IMG/VR virus record: IMGVR_UViG_3300002145_000078
Coordinates: 1 to 24,459 of that record
Strand: one strand, 5' to 3'
Origin: a virus
DNA: 24,459 bases
The notes under the pieces were generated by a model, which was not told where the DNA came from, searched no databases, and saw only the letters and a program-made list of their open reading frames with translations. The translations under genes were made by a program, and so were the position numbers. This document shows positions 3,884-15,633 of this stretch, piece after piece (the first letter of the stretch is position 1; every line of letters starts with the position of its first letter).

Positions 3884-4987
3884 ATGGGTAAGACCGTATT
3901 CAACCAAAACAAAGTAGACTTCACAAAGCAACACATGTTCTTCGGTGAGGACCAAAACACGCAGCGTTATGATGCGTTCAAGTTTCCGGTCTATGACAAG
4001 CTGAATCAGACCATGCTTGGCTATTTCTGGAGACCAGAAGAAGTCAGTTTGCAGAAAGACAGGGCGGATTATCAGAACTTCCGTCCTGAACAGAAGCACA
4101 TCTTCACCGCTAACCTGAAGTATCAAACCCTTCTAGACAGCGTACAGGGCAGAGGACCGTGCTTGGCATTCCTTCCTTACGCTTCGTTACCGGAACTAGA
4201 AGGTTGCATCGTCACTTGGGATTTCTTTGAGACGATCCACTCCCGGTCGTACACACATATCATGAAAAACGTGTATGCGGATCCGAGCGAGGTGTTTGAT
4301 ACCATCCTTGACGACGAGGAGATCCTAAAGCGTGCTACCAGCGTGACGAGGAACTACGATGCGTTCACGGACGCAGCAGATGCGTTCTTCCATCACGGAA
4401 AAGGATCGCTCAAAGAAGTCAAGAAGAAGCTCTTCCTGGCAATGATGAACGTCAACATACTTGAAGGGCTGCGGTTCTATGTCTCGTTCGCTTGCACGTT
4501 TGCATTCGGTGAGCTAAAGATGATGGAAGGGTCTGCCAAGATCATCTCGCTCATCGCACGTGATGAAGCACAACACCTGGCTTTGACCACACACATCCTA
4601 AAGAACTGGATGTCGGGCAAGGACGATCCTGAGATGGTTACCATTGCCAGAGAATGTGAAGCCGAAGTCTACGAGATGTGGCGCCTATGCGTCGACGAGG
4701 AGAAGGCTTGGGCCAAGCACCTCTTCAAGGACGGAAGCATCATCGGATTGAATGAGACACTGCTACATGGTTACGTGGAATATATCGCGAACCGAAGGCT
4801 CAAGGCACTAGGATATGATACCATCTTCTCGGCGCCGGTCAATACCAATCCGTTGCCTTGGACTCAGCATTGGTTGAGCTCAAGTGGATTACAGGTGGCT
4901 CCTCAACAAACGGAAAATCAATCTTATATCATCGGCGGAATCAAGCAAGATGTGACTACAGAAGATATAAAAGATTTCAAACTATAG
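3884..4987 (+). CDS. nrdB: Ribonucleoside-diphosphate reductase class Ia, small (beta) subunit
   Basis: Houses the diiron-tyrosyl radical that NrdA needs. The 367-residue protein keeps all metal ligands and the radical tyrosine: Asp85, Glu116, His119, Tyr123 (ETIHSRSY), Glu194 (ILEGLRF), Glu228 and His231 (RDEAQH). The C-terminal 20 or so residues (SYIIGGIKQD...DFKL) match the place of the E. coli R2 tail that docks on R1. The ribosome site is AGAGGAA. What is odd is that this C-terminal segment is repeated at 6052-6118, at the end of another reading frame, with a GIY-YIG gene between the copies. The copy here ends in AT-rich codons like the inserted cassette, suggesting that the last ~70 bases of nrdB arrived with the cassette. 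Confidence 0.97.
   Translation: MGKTVFNQNKVDFTKQHMFFGEDQNTQRYDAFKFPVYDKLNQTMLGYFWRPEEVSLQKDRADYQNFRPEQKHIFTANLKYQTLLDSVQGRGPCLAFLPYASLPELEGCIVTWDFFETIHSRSYTHIMKNVYADPSEVFDTILDDEEILKRATSVTRNYDAFTDAADAFFHHGKGSLKEVKKKLFLAMMNVNILEGLRFYVSFACTFAFGELKMMEGSAKIISLIARDEAQHLALTTHILKNWMSGKDDPEMVTIARECEAEVYEMWRLCVDEEKAWAKHLFKDGSIIGLNETLLHGYVEYIANRRLKALGYDTIFSAPVNTNPLPWTQHWLSSSGLQVAPQQTENQSYIIGGIKQDVTTEDIKDFKL
4924..4955 (+). repeat. Left direct repeat: nrdB C-terminal coding segment, copy A
   Basis: Encodes SYIIGGIKQD at the end of NrdB. It matches 6055-6086 with three base differences in 32 and the same reading frame. It probably marks the left edge of the homing-endonuclease insertion. Confidence 0.8.
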
Positions 4988-5019: not shown

Positions 5020-5715
5020 ATGGGATACATTTATAAGATAACGAACAAGGTTAACGGTAAGTCATATATTGGATACACTGAAAATCCGACAAAGAGATGG
5101 CAAGCCCATCAACGCAGACAAGGAAGTGAAATAGTTTTCCAAGCTATTAAAAAATATGGCTTAAAAAATCTAAATTTTGAAGTTATAGCTGAGGATAATG
5201 TTACGGGAGAGGACAGGTACATACAAGAACACAATACGATGTACCCAACCGGATATAATCTAACACCCGGCGGATCTTTGCCGCCAAATCATAGAGGCAA
5301 GACATACGAAGAAATATATAAATGTACAAAAAGAGCAAATGAACAAAAAACAAAAAGGCTAGCAAGGCAAAAACTAGCAGGCGGATACGGACCAAAAAAA
5401 CATACAGAAGAAACGAAACAAAAAATCAGTAACTCAATCTCTGGAAAAAATCATCCGATGTATGGCAAAGTACATAGTTCAACTACAATAAAGAAAATGA
5501 AAGAAACACGTAAAGGTCAAAATGCAGGATCAAAGAATAATACTGCTAAAAAATGGAAACTAACTAGTCCGGAGGGTAATGAACATTTTGCACACGGAAA
5601 CCTATACGAAAAATGTAAAGAACTAGGACTGAGTTTTAGTACGGTACATGCAAGCCATATGTATAAAAGACCAATGAGATCAGGGTGGAAGGTAGAAGAG
5701 TTAAATGGAAAATAA
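5020..5715 (+). CDS. GIY-YIG homing endonuclease with NUMOD3-type repeats
   Basis: Free-standing homing endonuclease, 231 residues, that would cut intron- or element-free alleles and copy itself. The GIY-YIG core is MGYIYKITNKVNGKSYIGYT, followed by catalytic Arg (TKRWQAH) and Glu in the RYIQEHNT segment. The middle is basic and carries NUMOD3-like DNA-binding motifs (HTEETKQKIS, HPMYGKVHS); the C-terminal part resembles a NUMOD1-like helix-turn-helix (EKCKELGLSFSTVHAS). It is notably AT-rich compared with nrdAB, a sign of separate origin. It starts 32 bases after nrdB with no Shine-Dalgarno and overlaps the next gene by 11 bases. Its likely target is the 3' end of nrdB. Confidence 0.93.
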   Translation: MGYIYKITNKVNGKSYIGYTENPTKRWQAHQRRQGSEIVFQAIKKYGLKNLNFEVIAEDNVTGEDRYIQEHNTMYPTGYNLTPGGSLPPNHRGKTYEEIYKCTKRANEQKTKRLARQKLAGGYGPKKHTEETKQKISNSISGKNHPMYGKVHSSTTIKKMKETRKGQNAGSKNNTAKKWKLTSPEGNEHFAHGNLYEKCKELGLSFSTVHASHMYKRPMRSGWKVEELNGK

Positions 5716-6118
5716 AATAACAGAGGCTTTTCTTCCGTCCAAAGACGATCCAAGAATAAAAGAAGCAATGGTTGCCCTTAACTGCAACCGTGCTATGTGT
5801 CTTGAGATTAGATTGAAACCTCTCACAAAAGAAAATGACTGTCATAATAATGTACTAAGGTATGTCTCAACTTACGGAGGCCAACAAATAAAAGGTTATT
5901 ACTTAGCGGTAGACAGGCATTCAGAAGTCTGGGCTGCATTTGGTCATAGTGTTTGGAAAAGAGACAGTGAGTTAATAGACATAACACCGGTAAGCGATGA
6001 AAGGACACACAATATTTTTATATGGAACGATAAACAAGAAACAGAGGTTGAGAGTTACATCATCGGCGGTATCAAGCAAGATATGAACGATGATCTCCTA
6101 AAGGGATTCAAGCTATGA
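5705..6118 (+). CDS. Cassette cargo protein fused to a second NrdB C-terminal tail
   Basis: 137 residues. Residues about 31-105 hold a compact domain (MCLEIRLKPL, DCHNNVLRYVSTYGG, GYYLAVDRHSEVWAAFGHSVW, ELIDITPV) that I recognise only as a conserved-looking uncharacterised family. Residues from about 116 on (SYIIGGIKQD...GFKL) repeat the NrdB tail. Its stop overlaps the next ATG (ATGA), and the last codons have the composition of the phage genes, so this is probably the original end of nrdB, now captured by the inserted frame. If made, the protein would carry the peptide with which R2 binds NrdA, so it could dock on NrdA. That is inference; gene displacement is the simpler explanation. Confidence 0.8.
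   Translation: MENKITEAFLPSKDDPRIKEAMVALNCNRAMCLEIRLKPLTKENDCHNNVLRYVSTYGGQQIKGYYLAVDRHSEVWAAFGHSVWKRDSELIDITPVSDERTHNIFIWNDKQETEVESYIIGGIKQDMNDDLLKGFKL
6055..6086 (+). repeat. Right direct repeat: nrdB C-terminal coding segment, copy B
   Basis: Counterpart of 4924-4955, offset 1131 bases, differing at three positions. Downstream of both copies the resemblance continues at protein level only. The pair bounds the AT-rich endonuclease-plus-cargo insertion. Confidence 0.8.
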
Positions 6119-8233: not shown

Positions 8234-8818
8234 ATGCGTTTTCAAAAGATCCTTACGGACGTAGATGGCGTCTTGTTGGACTGGGAGACGGCCTTCCACG
8301 CATGGATGGCAGAAAAAGGATACGATCGTACGGGAGATTCAGAAATCTCCTACCACATGGACCAACTGTACGGGATCGACAAGGAACGTGCTAAAGAACT
8401 GATCTTGAGGTTCAACGAAAGTGCATGGATTGGATATCTCAAGCCACTGAGGGACTCAGTTGAGGTATTGCATGAAATGATGATACAGGAAGGTTTCCAT
8501 TTTGAAGCCATCACGTCACTTTCACTCGACCATTGGGCCGGTGAACTTCGACGCAAGAACCTAGAAAGATGGTTTGGTGCATCCGTGCGCCGTTGCATCT
8601 GCCTAGACTGTGGTGGAGATAAAGATGAGATCCTCAAGGAATATGATCCAACTTGGTGGATTGAGGATAAATGGGAAAATGCCATAGCAGGACTTAATGC
8701 CGGTCACCGAGTAATATTAATGAACCACGGACATAACCAAGATCGGACAGATGATCGCATATATAGAGCGGATAATTGGAAAGAAATATATAGTATCATA
8801 AAAGAGAACCCATTATAA
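8234..8818 (+). CDS. HAD-superfamily phosphatase, 5'-nucleotidase-like
   Basis: 194 residues. HAD motif I is DVDGVLLDW (Asp9 nucleophile, Asp11 acid/base), motif II is in AITSLS, motif III is Lys130 (GGDK) and motif IV is WIEDKWENA (Glu144-Asp145). The small cap between motifs I and II and the overall length fit the 5'(3')-deoxyribonucleotidase-like phage group; the substrate cannot be read. The ribosome site is AGGAGATAG. The stop codon overlaps the stop of the convergent minus-strand endonuclease by 6 bases. Confidence 0.85.
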   Translation: MRFQKILTDVDGVLLDWETAFHAWMAEKGYDRTGDSEISYHMDQLYGIDKERAKELILRFNESAWIGYLKPLRDSVEVLHEMMIQEGFHFEAITSLSLDHWAGELRRKNLERWFGASVRRCICLDCGGDKDEILKEYDPTWWIEDKWENAIAGLNAGHRVILMNHGHNQDRTDDRIYRADNWKEIYSIIKENPL

Positions 8819-9454
8819 ATATCGCCATCCAAGGTAAGCGGTTTTGCATCTTTTTCCTATTCCTTCCGGAGTGAGATCATATGCTAATGCCGCTTCCTTT
8901 CTGCTATTGTAAACTGTGCCATCCGGAGCAACACATTTTCGTCTTCCGTGCTGGCTAAGTTTGATCTTAGTTTCTTCACTATGGGGTTTTCTTTTTAGAT
9001 TACTTCTGCCCGGATTAAAATTATTTGGTTGGGTACCTTCAGTTATGTATATGTTTTTATCTCCGTTGGTATACCATCTTAAATTCTGTTCTTGTACGGC
9101 ACTCCTGCCGTACATAGAATTCTTCTCACCGGAAGTATCTCGATTTTTTATACCTATTTGATACTTTTCAGATTTAGACGTGTCGCCACCAGTTCCTGAT
9201 TCTTCACAAAGGTTAGCCCATTCTTTACTATCTGTTATGTTCCAAAGATTACTATAATACATTCCCCATTCTTTTAATTCACTTTTATCTTGACATTCCT
9301 TTAATAAGACTGTAGTATAAGTATAGCCGTGGTTAGCGAGATGGCTCTTCCATCTCGCTCCAGAACCGGTATACAGATGAAAATCTTTCTGTTTAGTTTG
9401 TCCGAGATACTTTAGACCAGTAACAGTATGAGTTTTAATATAGAGGTAATACAT
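8813..9454 (-). CDS. Second GIY-YIG homing endonuclease, antisense
   Basis: 213 residues. The GIY-YIG core appears as MYYLYIKTHTVTGLKYLGQT, with Arg in GARWKSH and Glu in the ELKEWGMYY region. It carries a NUMOD3-like motif (HSEETKIKLSQHG) and a C-terminal NUMOD1-like helix-turn-helix (SRKEAALAYDLTPEGIGKRC). I chose the ATG at 9454 because the GIY motif starts there; a TTG start seven codons upstream would run through the promoter octamer. AT-rich like the first endonuclease and opposite in strand to all its neighbours. It probably entered the gap between the HAD gene and the 9510 gene; no flanking repeat was seen. Confidence 0.92.
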   Translation of the reverse strand: MYYLYIKTHTVTGLKYLGQTKQKDFHLYTGSGARWKSHLANHGYTYTTVLLKECQDKSELKEWGMYYSNLWNITDSKEWANLCEESGTGGDTSKSEKYQIGIKNRDTSGEKNSMYGRSAVQEQNLRWYTNGDKNIYITEGTQPNNFNPGRSNLKRKPHSEETKIKLSQHGRRKCVAPDGTVYNSRKEAALAYDLTPEGIGKRCKTAYLGWRYL

Positions 9455-9459
9455 GAATA

Positions 9460-9467
9460 TATTTATC
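9460..9467 (-). promoter_or_regulatory. Late-type octamer GATAAATA 5 bases before the antisense GIY-YIG start
   Basis: On the minus strand GATAAATA, then TATTC, then ATG. No Shine-Dalgarno lies between. The same layout occurs at 5008, 11343 and 17850 (minus). Confidence 0.55.
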
Positions 9468-9509
9468 GAAGACAAGCCACAAAACTATAAAAGGAGTTAA
9501 TGTTAATAG

Positions 9510-12879: not shown

Positions 12880-13225
12880 TCCAGCCTTCTTGCTCATCTG
12901 TCCAACAGACGAAGCCAAAGCAGAATTCCAAGCAACCTTAGCACAAAGCAATGAAGGTATCCGCATTTACTGGTACCGTGAATCAGACCAAGACATTGAT
13001 TGGCTCTTGGACGTATTCCAAGCGGCCACCGCGGTATACATAGATCTAGACAATTCTCCTCCAGAAGTACGCGAGATCGCGGCATTTTTTATCGCGCATT
13101 CAAAGACTTACTGGTTGACAAATGGGGCTGTCTTGTCTTATAGTAATCTAAGCGTCAACAGGGTGTATGACATGTCCTGGGCGCTTAGTCAGGTAAAAGG
13201 AGAGAGTATCCCCAATGAGGAATAA
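12830..13225 (+). CDS. Hypothetical phage protein
   Basis: 131 residues starting MSKILLITPPDKIHNLDPAF. The ATG at 12830 follows GGGAAG and lies inside the last 50 bases of the membrane-protein gene; an upstream TTG at 12806 is less likely. It has alternating beta and helix segments (ILLITPP, FLLICPT, IRIYWY, AVYIDLD, TYWLTN), suggesting a small Rossmann-like or response-regulator-like alpha/beta fold, but no active-site motif. The distal part also carries the promoter for S21. Confidence 0.8.
   Translation: MSKILLITPPDKIHNLDPAFLLICPTDEAKAEFQATLAQSNEGIRIYWYRESDQDIDWLLDVFQAATAVYIDLDNSPPEVREIAAFFIAHSKTYWLTNGAVLSYSNLSVNRVYDMSWALSQVKGESIPNEE
13115..13144 (+). promoter_or_regulatory. Intragenic sigma-70-like promoter for S21
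   Basis: TTGACA (13115-13120), 18-bp spacer, TATAGT (13139-13144) inside the upstream coding region, about 70 bases before the S21 start. GTTGAC (13114-13119) and GTCAAC (13154-13159) form a 6-bp inverted repeat around it. Confidence 0.6.
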
Positions 13226-13454
13226 CCAGAAGGACCGTCCACAGGGAGGTCTAACGGTAGAGGTAAGAAACGGAGACTTTGGTAAGGCTCTCCGGGTCTT
13301 CAAAAAGAAAGTGCAGGACGACGGTATCTTGCAAGAGTACAAGGAACGTCAGTTCTACATGAAGCCTTCGGAAAAGCGTAATCGCGCGAAGGCCGCTGGC
13401 CGCTCACGCTGGCTGAAGAAGCAGGCAAAGCAGCGGGCAGAATGGGGATACTAA
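13215..13454 (+). CDS. rpsU: Ribosomal protein bS21 homologue
   Basis: 79 residues. The segment LTVEVRNGDFGKALRVFKKK, followed by VQDDGILQEYKERQFYMKPSEKRNRAKA at residues 33-60, lines up along its whole length with bacterial S21, including the start of the basic C-terminal helix. S21 sits in the 30S platform near the anti-Shine-Dalgarno end of 16S rRNA and influences initiation. A phage copy could replace the host protein and bias ribosomes toward phage messages; phage S21 genes are known, mainly from aquatic phages. It overlaps the previous gene by 11 bases and probably has its own promoter at 13115. Its ribosome site is AAAAGGAGAG, slightly distant. Confidence 0.92.
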   Translation: MRNNQKDRPQGGLTVEVRNGDFGKALRVFKKKVQDDGILQEYKERQFYMKPSEKRNRAKAAGRSRWLKKQAKQRAEWGY

Positions 13455-13555: not shown

Positions 13556-13978
13556 ATGACAAGACTAGATCTACCCACAATCGCACGAGGAACAGTTGGC
13601 TTTGATCGCCTCTTCAACGAGGTTGATCGAATGTTCGCCAATTCCGTCTCAACCGGATTTCCTCCGTACAACATCGTCCTCGTGGACGACAACAAGTACG
13701 AGGTGACACTGGCAGTGGCTGGATTCTCGATGGATGACATCGAGATCACCCAGGACGGAAACGTGCTTCGTGTTGAGGGTACGACACCAGAAGCAGAAGA
13801 CGTGACCTACCTGCACAAGGGTATCGCGGCACGTTCGTTCAAGCGTGAGTTCGCGCTTGCGGACCATGTGCGAGTAGAGTCCGCAGACCTCGAGAACGGC
13901 ATGCTCACCATAGCGTTGGTGCGCGAAGTTCCTGAGGCACTACAGCCGAAAAAGATCGCTATCACGCAGCGTTCCTAA
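13556..13978 (+). CDS. Small heat-shock protein, Hsp20/IbpA type
   Basis: 140-residue ATP-independent holdase. The alpha-crystallin domain spans about 36-132: PPYNIVLVDDNKYEVTLAVA, then GFSMDDIEITQDGNVLRVEG, and the late-strand motif LENGMLTIALVREVPE. The short N-terminal arm (FDRLFNEVDRMFANS) matches the IbpA/IbpB style. Hsp20 genes are frequent in T4-like cyanophages and related marine phages, where they are thought to help capsid or scaffold folding. It has its own promoter and the good ribosome site AAAGGAGAAC. It is monocistronic up to the structured element at 13991. Confidence 0.95.
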   Translation: MTRLDLPTIARGTVGFDRLFNEVDRMFANSVSTGFPPYNIVLVDDNKYEVTLAVAGFSMDDIEITQDGNVLRVEGTTPEAEDVTYLHKGIAARSFKREFALADHVRVESADLENGMLTIALVREVPEALQPKKIAITQRS

Positions 13979-13990
13979 GGTAAACTGAGG

Positions 13991-14065
13991 GCGGCGGGCG
14001 AAGCTTGGAGATTTGGATCTCTACTGAGGATTAGGTCCTCGAATCTAAGCTCGCCGCTCATTTTT
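13991..14065 (+). terminator. Structured terminator/attenuator between hsp20 and clpS
   Basis: A closing stem (GCGGCG 13991-13996 with CGCCGC 14052-14057, or GGCGA 13997-14001 with TCGCC 14051-14055 plus GCTT/AAGC) encloses two hairpins, GAGAT-TTGG-ATCTC (14008-14021) and GAGGA-TTAGG-TCCTC (14026-14040), forming a three-way junction. It is followed by five T (14061-14065). AGATT (14009-14013) can instead pair with AATCT (14042-14046), giving a second fold. clpS begins 13 bases after the T run with no promoter seen in between. Confidence 0.6.
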
Positions 14066-14078
14066 CTAAGAGGTAATG

Positions 14079-14387
14079 ATGTCAGACGTTGATACAATTG
14101 AGAAAGTCGATGAGGAAATTCGTGAGGTCACGAATGAACCAGGCCGTTACAAGGTCGTCTTCATAAACGATAACCACACTCCTATGGAATGGGTGGTGGA
14201 TGTTCTCACTCGGATCTTCAAGCACACCGTTGAGAGTGCTGCGGAGATCACCATGCAGATACATACAGAGGGTTCAGGCATCGCCGGCGTCTACTCATTT
14301 GAGGTCGCCGAGCAGAAGGCCGTTGAGACTGTCGAGCAAAGCCGTAAGCACGATTTTCCATTACAAGTGAAGCTCGACGAGGAGTGA
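14079..14387 (+). CDS. clpS: ClpS-like adaptor of the Clp protease
   Basis: 102 residues. ClpS binds the N-domain of ClpA/ClpC and hands over N-degron substrates. The core PGRYKVVFINDNHTPMEWVV is typical; Asn30-Asp31 and His62 (IHTEGSGIAGVYSFEVAEQKA) sit where the N-terminal residue of the substrate is bound. The N-terminal 20 residues are acidic and flexible, as in host ClpS. The second of two tandem ATGs is chosen because it has better spacing from AGAGG. It could redirect host proteolysis. Its stop overlaps the heme oxygenase start, tying the two into one transcript. Confidence 0.93.
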   Translation: MSDVDTIEKVDEEIREVTNEPGRYKVVFINDNHTPMEWVVDVLTRIFKHTVESAAEITMQIHTEGSGIAGVYSFEVAEQKAVETVEQSRKHDFPLQVKLDEE

Positions 14388-14944
14388 TGCTAAGTAGCTT
14401 TATGGACAACTTAAAGCAACTTACATTTGAGCATCACCGTAACGCTGAGAGACAAGAATTCGTCAAGGAATTGATGTCTGGATCAATCAACGATGAACGA
14501 TACGCAACCTACCTATTCAACCAACATGCCTGTTATAGGGTACTGGAGAGCATGGCGATTCTCCATGATCAGTTTGCAGGCATTCCTGAAGTCCCTCGAG
14601 CCAAAGCGATATGGGAAGACTTCACTGAACTCTGGGGAGAACGCCCAGAGACCCCTCCAACCTTGCCAGTCACGAGTCGGTATCTAGAACATCTCAAGTC
14701 CATCATGGACGAACCAGATAAGATAATGGCACATGTCTATGTGAGGCACATGGGAGACCTATCAGGCGGACAGATGATCGCTCGAAAGGTTCCAGGTGAA
14801 GGACGGTATTATAAGTTTGACGGCGACATACAAGATATCAAAGGACGGTTCCGTGTAAAACTACACGACGGCTTAGCCATAGAAGCCAAGATATGCTTTG
14901 ATTTTGCTACCGAACTATTCAAGGATATGACAGAACTGAAATGA
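14387..14944 (+). CDS. ho1: Heme oxygenase (biliverdin-forming)
   Basis: 185 residues. It opens heme to biliverdin, CO and iron using reduced ferredoxin or a similar donor. The proximal heme ligand is His17 in FEHHRNAE, and the distal helix carries the family signature GDLSGGQ at residues 123-129 (YVRHMGDLSGGQMIA). The length is shorter than cyanobacterial HO1 (about 240) but spans the catalytic domain. An alternative ATG at 14402 removes five residues. It is coupled to clpS upstream (TGATG) and to the bilin reductase downstream (ATGA), so its biliverdin is presumably passed to that enzyme. Confidence 0.95.
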   Translation: MLSSFMDNLKQLTFEHHRNAERQEFVKELMSGSINDERYATYLFNQHACYRVLESMAILHDQFAGIPEVPRAKAIWEDFTELWGERPETPPTLPVTSRYLEHLKSIMDEPDKIMAHVYVRHMGDLSGGQMIARKVPGEGRYYKFDGDIQDIKGRFRVKLHDGLAIEAKICFDFATELFKDMTELK

Positions 14945-15633
14945 GCACAGTTTGGGAAAAGCTCGACGTATGCCGAGCTGAAATGATAGATCTGCTAAAT
15001 CGCAATCTTCGAGCATACCAAGAACCAGGACTTGACCACTTCAACCAACCCGAACAAGGATGGATCAATCTCGTTTGGAAGAGTGATGACGTGCGGCGCG
15101 CCCACGTTGACGTCGTTGATGCACGACAGAAACGTGGATTATGGATGATGCACGTCTGCATCTTTCCAGCATCGAACAATGATGCACCCATCTACGGATT
15201 TGATGTCATCGCAGGTGAAAACAAGATCACTGGAGCCTTCCATGACTTCTCGGCATCAAGTGGTGGGGAGGAGCATCCGCTAGTCGAATGGTATAAAGAC
15301 AGTGTCAAAGACTTTACCCCTTCCAAGAAACGAACACTTCCAGAATGGGCCGAGAACATCTTTACTGATGAGATGATAGCAGCTGGCAACGTGCAAGACG
15401 AAGAAGAGATCGACAAGATCCTTGATCTTGCCGTGAAAAACCTAGAAGTTTACCTAGAAAGTCTCCCTGAATACACAGGAAATGCAAATCAAGACTTGAC
15501 AATAGGGTGTCACAACTATTATGCTCACAATCAGCGTCAGAACCCACATACACCAAAAGTGATGCGGGCGCTAGGACTTGATGAGAAAGATGTTGAGACC
15601 TTTTGCACTGACGTACTTTTTCCAACCACCTGA
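14941..15633 (+). CDS. pcyX: Ferredoxin-dependent bilin reductase (PcyA/PebS/PcyX family)
   Basis: 230 residues that reduce biliverdin to a phycobilin with electrons from ferredoxin. Family landmarks are GWINLVWKS (40-48), LWMMHVCIFPASN with His71, the APIYGFDVIAG strand with Asp88, GAFHDFS (98-104), RTLPEWAENIF (131-141) and the C-terminal HNQRQNPHTPKVMRALGL. His71 and Asp88 occupy the positions of the PcyA substrate-binding His88 and Asp105 by motif context. The GFDVIAG and TGAFHDFS segments look closest to the phage PebS/PcyX groups, and an uncultured-phage origin fits PcyX, which makes phycoerythrobilin. The subfamily is inferred, hence the tentative symbol. It is translationally coupled to heme oxygenase. 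Confidence 0.88.
   Translation: MSTVWEKLDVCRAEMIDLLNRNLRAYQEPGLDHFNQPEQGWINLVWKSDDVRRAHVDVVDARQKRGLWMMHVCIFPASNNDAPIYGFDVIAGENKITGAFHDFSASSGGEEHPLVEWYKDSVKDFTPSKKRTLPEWAENIFTDEMIAAGNVQDEEEIDKILDLAVKNLEVYLESLPEYTGNANQDLTIGCHNYYAHNQRQNPHTPKVMRALGLDEKDVETFCTDVLFPTT

Follow-up and report, generated by a model that had tools for sequence, protein, structure and literature searches.

Introduction

Why would a phage place the gene for a protease adaptor directly in front of two genes that turn heme into a bilin? The question is raised by an IMG/VR virus record of 24,459 bases, analyzed here over its whole length (the window) and representing a 24-kb fragment of its phage, in which clpS is followed by hemO and a gene for a ferredoxin-dependent bilin reductase. 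The pigment half of this arrangement is not new, since the marine-phage hemO-pcyX pair, its activity and a variant of three genes that includes AlaS have been published by authors who termed the heme-catabolic genes beside AlaS enigmatic (PMC11480375). ClpS is absent from that paper. Setting aside the original PcyX papers (Ledermann 2016, 2018), whose gene maps could show ClpS, we found no paper on ClpS together with heme oxygenase in phages in the literature searched, and the conserved ClpS link that we report here is apparently undescribed.

Results

Three overlapping genes encode ClpS, a heme oxygenase and a bilin reductase

The three genes overlap on the plus strand at 14079-15633, and all are intact (Table 1). 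In a Pfam search, each product scored well above its curated cut-off: 93 bits versus 23 for ClpS, 78.3 bits versus 23 for Heme_oxygenase, and 55.3 bits versus 31 for the Fe_bilin_red family (PF05996). Reading the junctions directly from the sequence, we observed that the TGA stop of clpS (14385-14387) overlaps an in-frame ATG of hemO (TGATG) and that the TGA stop of hemO (14942-14944) overlaps the ATG of pcyX (ATGA), just as an earlier reading of this DNA from sequence only had described. The hemO start may, however, be the ATG 18 bases downstream, at 14405, because homologues start at "M-xNLKELT".

Table 1. Positions of the three-gene unit and of its upstream neighbors in the window
Feature	Position	Strand	Evidence
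bS21, ribosomal protein gene, upstream cluster member	13215..13454	+	tblastn to annotated phage S21 proteins, e.g. Mosig 6e-12
hsp20, small heat-shock chaperone	13556..13978	+	Pfam HSP20 3.8e-19; PHROG Hsp20 3.4e-39
GC-rich hairpin, hsp20-clpS intergenic, followed by a short U run	13989..14059	+	MFE -36.9 kcal/mol, z -2.8
clpS, predicted N-degron adaptor for ClpA	14079..14387 (likely ATG 14079; alternative ATG 14076; ORF 14076-14387)	+	Pfam ClpS 9.9e-27; PDB Caulobacter ClpS 9.9e-21
hemO, heme oxygenase	14387..14944 (start ATG 14387, GTG 14384 or ATG 14405)	+	Pfam Heme_oxygenase 9.2e-22; PDB heme oxygenase 3.3e-14
pcyX, ferredoxin-dependent bilin reductase	14941..15633	+	Pfam Fe_bilin_red 9.3e-15; PDB 5owg PcyX 9e-80

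The bilin reductase groups with PcyX

Among proteins of solved structure, the best match of the reductase was PcyX_EBK42635 (PDB 5owg; phmmer 9e-80, residues 4-228), with a cyanobacterial PcyA next (7e-12). A maximum-likelihood tree placed it in a clade with PcyX_EBK42635 and the PcyX of Pelagibacter phage Mosig EXVC030M (support 99/96), the latter being 50.7% identical to the window protein. Cyanobacterial and cyanophage PcyA and PebS belong likewise to the ferredoxin-dependent bilin reductase family but lay outside this clade, PcyA being split off at 99/89 and 100/98; cyanophage PcyA is distant, with ~25% identity to the window protein over 69% of the query. An 87-sequence tree agreed (PcyX clade support 95-96), and in it EBK42635 and Mosig PcyX nested inside the diversity that is linked to ClpS. 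The reductase trees contained PcyX, PcyA and PebS, with PebA, PebB and HY2 absent. Ferredoxin-dependent bilin reductases of any kind occurred in 3 of 385 bacterial genomes (a class sample); those not already collected gave no match to the PcyX profile and were left out of the tree.

The catalytic residues of PcyA, His88 and Asp105, have their counterparts in His71 and Asp88 of the reductase, both of which were invariant across 24 sequences. The position of PcyA Glu76 is taken by Asp57, and PcyX enzymes are without this Glu76 (PMC10151467). The protein missed the PcyA equivalog cut-off (NCBIfam NF002760, 74.4 bits versus 206). The possibility that the reductase belongs outside the family was not borne out: it fell inside PcyX in both trees, and the 5owg match and the clade support argue for a PcyX-type enzyme, to which we assign it by sequence. 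From its family membership, the expected product would be phycoerythrobilin, a pink bile-type pigment; the published CB_2 enzyme, in contrast, makes phycocyanobilin (PMC11480375). Rough dN/dS counts, from partly saturated pairs, were low, at 0.07 for pcyX, 0.18 for hsp20, 0.23 for hemO and 0.40 for clpS.

Key residues are retained in the heme oxygenase and in ClpS

The heme oxygenase carries HO-1-type marks, namely the distal GDLSGGQ and a proximal-His motif with His17. In an alignment of homologues, this proximal His was nearly invariant and the distal GD invariant. The family scores and key residues of this enzyme and of the PcyX-type reductase agree with the complete heme-to-bilin route that the sequence-only reading had proposed.

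In ClpS, the E. coli pocket residues Asn34, Asp35 and His66 correspond to Asn30, Asp31 and His62 of the window protein, and the gatekeeper Met40 to Met36. Across 157 distinct phage ClpS proteins, the equivalents of E. coli Asn34, Asp35, Thr38, His66 and Glu79 were essentially invariant and the gatekeeper was retained in most, whereas E. coli Met62 was replaced by Thr in 109 of the 157 (Thr58 in the window). Glu79 and Lys84 of E. coli ClpS are ClpA-contact residues; the former was present in all 157 proteins, and the latter was Lys, or Arg in 9. Phage ClpS should therefore bind N-degrons and ClpA, as judged from these residues, perhaps with altered specificity. The window protein missed the NCBIfam ClpS equivalog cut-offs (best 93.1 bits versus 149).

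The order clpS-hemO-pcyX is kept across divergent phages

With PcyX as bait, we observed the order hsp20-clpS-hemO-pcyX in 46 of 47 non-redundant viral PcyX contigs that had enough upstream sequence, among the matches listed. With ClpS as bait (three scans, best 80 matches per scan, at least 3 kb downstream required, the proportions being those of a sample), hemO-pcyX lay directly downstream of clpS in 78 of 107 non-redundant phage clpS loci and neither gene was found in 29, again among the matches listed. Of 125 distinct sequences, 73 had a 4-base overlap (ATGA) between the stop of clpS and the ATG of hemO and 10 had a 1-base overlap; gene order and overlap persisted down to ~40% protein identity. 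An order kept in all but one of the PcyX loci is a linkage far beyond chance. The coupling to a protease adaptor had at first been taken as unusual; by both counts it is instead normal in this lineage, and the existence of a bS21-hsp20-clpS cluster without pigment genes (see below) also speaks against that description.

The known hemO-pcyX cassette of PcyX_EBK42635 and Mosig has the same two adjacent enzymes in the same order, likewise in non-cyanobacterial phages. The Mosig pair, however, has no hsp20 or clpS beside it, whereas the window pair stands behind bS21-hsp20-clpS in what looks like a jumbo-phage lineage. Mosig gave no match to ClpS, to a ClpA-type ATPase or to ClpP, so the pigment route can do without the adaptor. 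The hemO-pcyA/X-valaS cassette (PMC11480375) likewise combines hemO with a ferredoxin-dependent bilin reductase. AlaS occurred in 12 of 39 contigs of relatives; in a 275-kb relative it lies ~35 kb from the block, unlike in that cassette.

The intergenic region between hsp20 and clpS forms a hairpin with a stem of at least 7 bp in 154 of 156 distinct regions, variable in sequence and constant in structure, both with and without pigment genes downstream. An Rfam search gave no match for it, and a known RNA element was rejected. The hairpin is a possible terminator or mRNA end or processing element; since it separates hsp20 from clpS, clpS-hemO-pcyX may be a transcript of its own or a processed mRNA.

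Several relatives (L118, L169, L174, L102, L028, L034 and L152) have extra genes inside the clpS-hemO-pcyX block. By eye, these inserts comprise a fatty-acid desaturase pair and genes resembling an FAD-dependent halogenase, a nitrilase and a 2OG-Fe(II) oxygenase.

The carriers resemble jumbo phages

Nearly all of the window is collinear with its nearest relative, a 100-kb contig of 35% G+C, and most of it, more loosely, with a 275-kb relative that carries bS21, Hsp20, ClpS, HemO, PcyX, ClpP, a ClpA-like protein and AlaS. Carrier contigs reach 365 kb. Four long contigs yielded a TerL; the one from the 275-kb contig is nearest to PA5oct (54%), then to Phosso (50%), and then to Vibrio and enterobacterial jumbo phages. 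The carriers thus look like a jumbo-phage lineage and not like cyanophages, and a pseudomonadotal host is our best guess. Searches for psbA in 39 relatives and for phycobiliprotein-family genes in 40 records found neither, in line with the earlier impression that nothing pointed clearly to a cyanobacterial host. The search for [2Fe-2S] (Fer2) ferredoxins that had been suggested along with the one for psbA likewise found none in the 39 relatives.

Other routes to the lineage and the host were tried and rejected. We searched the loci, most of which span only 10 kb on each side, for eight Mosig proteins (two neck proteins, TerL, TerS, sheath, tube and others); as none of the eight turned up, a Mosig-like lineage was rejected. 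Host assignment through co-binning was rejected as well, with PcyX contigs falling in metagenome-assembled genomes (MAGs) of six unrelated groups; these are probably binning errors, because most are small contigs carrying the phage block. A plasmid search for the host gave no match.

The window NrdA is 70% identical to a Synechococcus phage NrdA, which makes gene exchange with cyanophages likely and any host assignment tentative. Over most of the window, G+C is ~47-50%, compared with 35-43% in nearly all relatives of the same gene order, a difference that suggests a different host or mutation bias.

The nrd region of the window has a further peculiarity. The C-terminal tail of NrdB (3884-4987), SYIIGGIKQDVTTEDIKDFKL, recurs as SYIIGGIKQDMNDDLLKGFKL at the end of another ORF, of 137 aa (5705-6118), which sits behind an ORF (5020-5715) that by eye resembles a GIY-YIG homing endonuclease. 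The nearest relative is without this insert. Since the C-terminal tail of NrdB docks NrdB on NrdA, the 137-aa ORF may be an insertion scar or an NrdB competitor. A second ORF resembling a GIY-YIG homing endonuclease by eye lies on the minus strand at 8813-9475.

Many relatives encode further parts of a Clp protease

ClpP was matched in 21 of 27 long contigs, and a Clp ATPase of ~750 residues (ClpA-like) in 13 of the 27; ClpS, ClpP and the ClpA-like protein occurred together on at least 10 single contigs. The ClpA-like ATPases of relatives have two Walker A motifs and an IGF loop, with a Clp N-terminal domain in three of the four scanned. ClpA was the best of all Clp ATPase models for them, over the full length, at 854-879 bits, below the TIGR02639 cut-off of 993. 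The ClpP proteins of relatives keep the Ser and His motifs. These features, and the ClpS pocket and ClpA-contact residues, are shared with the bacterial ClpAPS N-degron protease, although the phage proteins do not reach the strict NCBIfam cut-offs, Met62 of the pocket is replaced by Thr in most, and their activity is a prediction.

In the nearest relative (100 kb), ClpP was present and ClpA was not seen. As the window spans only 24 kb, ClpA and ClpP are seen in relatives only, and for the window's own phage it is ClpS alone that has been shown. With ClpP and a ClpA-like unfoldase encoded by many relatives, ClpS may serve a phage-encoded protease. A review of jumbo phages names ClpP, ClpS and ClpA separately, with ClpS serving the host ClpAP (PMC7824862). 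PA5oct, SCTP-2 and Phosso have ClpA-size and ClpX-size ATPases together with ClpP, so a phage Clp set is not confined to the pigment phages.

Two further arrangements were noticed in passing. In a different phage (locus L096, 5998-8482), ClpS has a ClpP gene 1.6 kb downstream, and in Acinetobacter phage MD-2021a (CAKLQF020000008.1, 105327-107801) clpA and clpS are annotated side by side.

A bS21-hsp20-clpS cluster also occurs without pigment genes

Positions from the Pfam search were measured in 23 long relatives; in 21 of them, bS21 precedes clpS by 0.06-4.3 kb. The bS21-hsp20-clpS cluster is followed by other genes in place of the pigment pair in PA5oct and in at least 22 contigs. PA5oct, an isolated Pseudomonas jumbo phage, has the order ClpX-bS21-(two genes)-Hsp20-ClpS: the three genes of the window cluster stand in the same order and near a ClpX gene, but bS21 and Hsp20 are set apart by two additional genes, and clpS is not followed by hemO-pcyX. 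In Salicola phage SCTP-2 the order is ClpX, a small gene that matches bS21, and ClpS; in Sinorhizobium phage Phosso, Hsp20 is followed by thymidine kinase and then by ClpS. The bS21-hsp20-clpS cluster is probably older than its link to the pigment genes. Most simply, an older proteostasis cluster would have received the pigment pair behind clpS, the alternative being loss of the pair from the phages that are now without it.

Discussion

We give a probability of about 0.7 to the operon and its biochemistry as set out here. The genes clpS, hemO and pcyX would form a co-translated operon behind bS21-hsp20, in jumbo phages of non-cyanobacterial, probably pseudomonadotal hosts. HemO would convert heme to biliverdin IX-alpha, Fe2+ and CO, and PcyX would carry out the four-electron reduction of biliverdin to phycoerythrobilin. 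We infer host ferredoxin as the source of electrons because no [2Fe-2S] ferredoxin was found in the 39 relatives. ClpS would act as a working N-degron adaptor for ClpA(P), with a ClpA-like unfoldase and ClpP supplied by the phage itself in many relatives. In this lineage bS21, Hsp20 and ClpS would have come first; the pigment pair would then have entered directly behind clpS and stayed coupled to it, suggesting that the phage produces both at one stage of infection.

What the two halves do for each other is less clear. Their most likely purpose would be to deplete and divert the heme/tetrapyrrole pool of the host during takeover, with the Clp system clearing away host proteins meanwhile, but such a shared purpose is weakly inferred and we regard it as doubtful. 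A more ambitious picture, that environmental jumbo phages carry their own ClpA-ClpP-ClpS N-degron protease and Hsp20, joined in an operon to a heme-to-phycoerythrobilin pathway (with AlaS in some) as one system that seizes tetrapyrrole and heme-protein turnover in non-photosynthetic hosts, also seems rather unlikely. The sequence-only reading had proposed that ClpS helps to dismantle a heme- or bilin-protein, a role that it may have. Since clpS and hsp20 also occur without the pigment route, the adjacency could be positional.

Close to an even bet, indeed, is that hemO-pcyX landed behind a well expressed hsp20-clpS by accident of insertion and was kept there for expression timing only, with no shared function. 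The presence of hsp20-clpS without pigment genes in PA5oct, Phosso and at least 22 contigs fits such an accident, as do the unrelated genes that have also inserted between clpS and hemO or between hemO and pcyX, and the hemO-pcyX pair that Mosig holds elsewhere. Chance neighbors, however, usually keep less than the order and overlap seen here, which persist in 46 of 47 loci among the matches listed and at protein identities down to ~40%. We consider co-expression without shared function at least as likely as a functional coupling of ClpS and HemO.

If the coupling is functional, the most testable idea for it is heme-regulated Clp control of tetrapyrrole synthesis. Phage ClpS/Clp and HemO would act on one regulated step: ClpS would retune the turnover of glutamyl-tRNA reductase, HemO would lower heme, PcyX would remove biliverdin and AlaS would add input, bringing the flux under phage control. 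We hold this full scheme to be unlikely. The ClpS-HemO translational overlap kept over large divergence and the presence of AlaS in 12 of 39 contigs favor it; against it, Mosig manages without ClpS, no AlaS was seen in most fragments, and we know of no substrate of any phage ClpS. Its precedent lies in Salmonella and chloroplasts, where glutamyl-tRNA reductase is a heme-regulated Clp substrate, and in plants, where ClpS1 is the adaptor and interacts with the enzyme; this published link could explain why it might pay to couple an adaptor with a heme oxygenase, yet the rate of glutamyl-tRNA reductase degradation in the dark is unchanged without ClpS1 (reviewed in PMC7966870).

Recycling of iron is a further alternative, in which ClpS/Clp would degrade host heme proteins, HemO would free the iron for, e.g., class I ribonucleotide reductase, and PcyX would only clear biliverdin. 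The genes nrdA and nrdB do stand in the same block of the window and in relatives, and a role in iron supply has also been raised for the published cassette (PMC11480375). A dedicated reductase is, however, not needed for iron release, and AlaS in 12 of 39 contigs implies that new heme is made, costing as much iron as HemO returns, which argues that the making or removal of tetrapyrroles counts for more than any net gain of iron; we judge recycling improbable. Loading of phycoerythrobilin as a chromophore onto a host phytochrome or bilin-binding protein, with a change in light signaling, is very improbable: although phycoerythrobilin is what PcyX produces and the PcyA of a freshwater phage has provided a phytochrome with its chromophore (PMC11480375), no phycobiliprotein-family gene was found in 40 records.

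Whichever account of the coupling holds, the near-constant partnership with ClpS is a strong new clue to the enigmatic heme and bilin genes in phages of non-photosynthetic bacteria. Through it, the pigment genes are connected with a set of phage proteostasis genes, and heme-regulated Clp control offers a concrete link that can be tested. A jumbo-phage lineage related to PA5oct thereby replaces the Mosig-like pelagiphages as the main carrier of PcyX, and the nesting of the structurally solved PcyX and of Mosig PcyX inside the diversity of this lineage suggests where the cassette came from.
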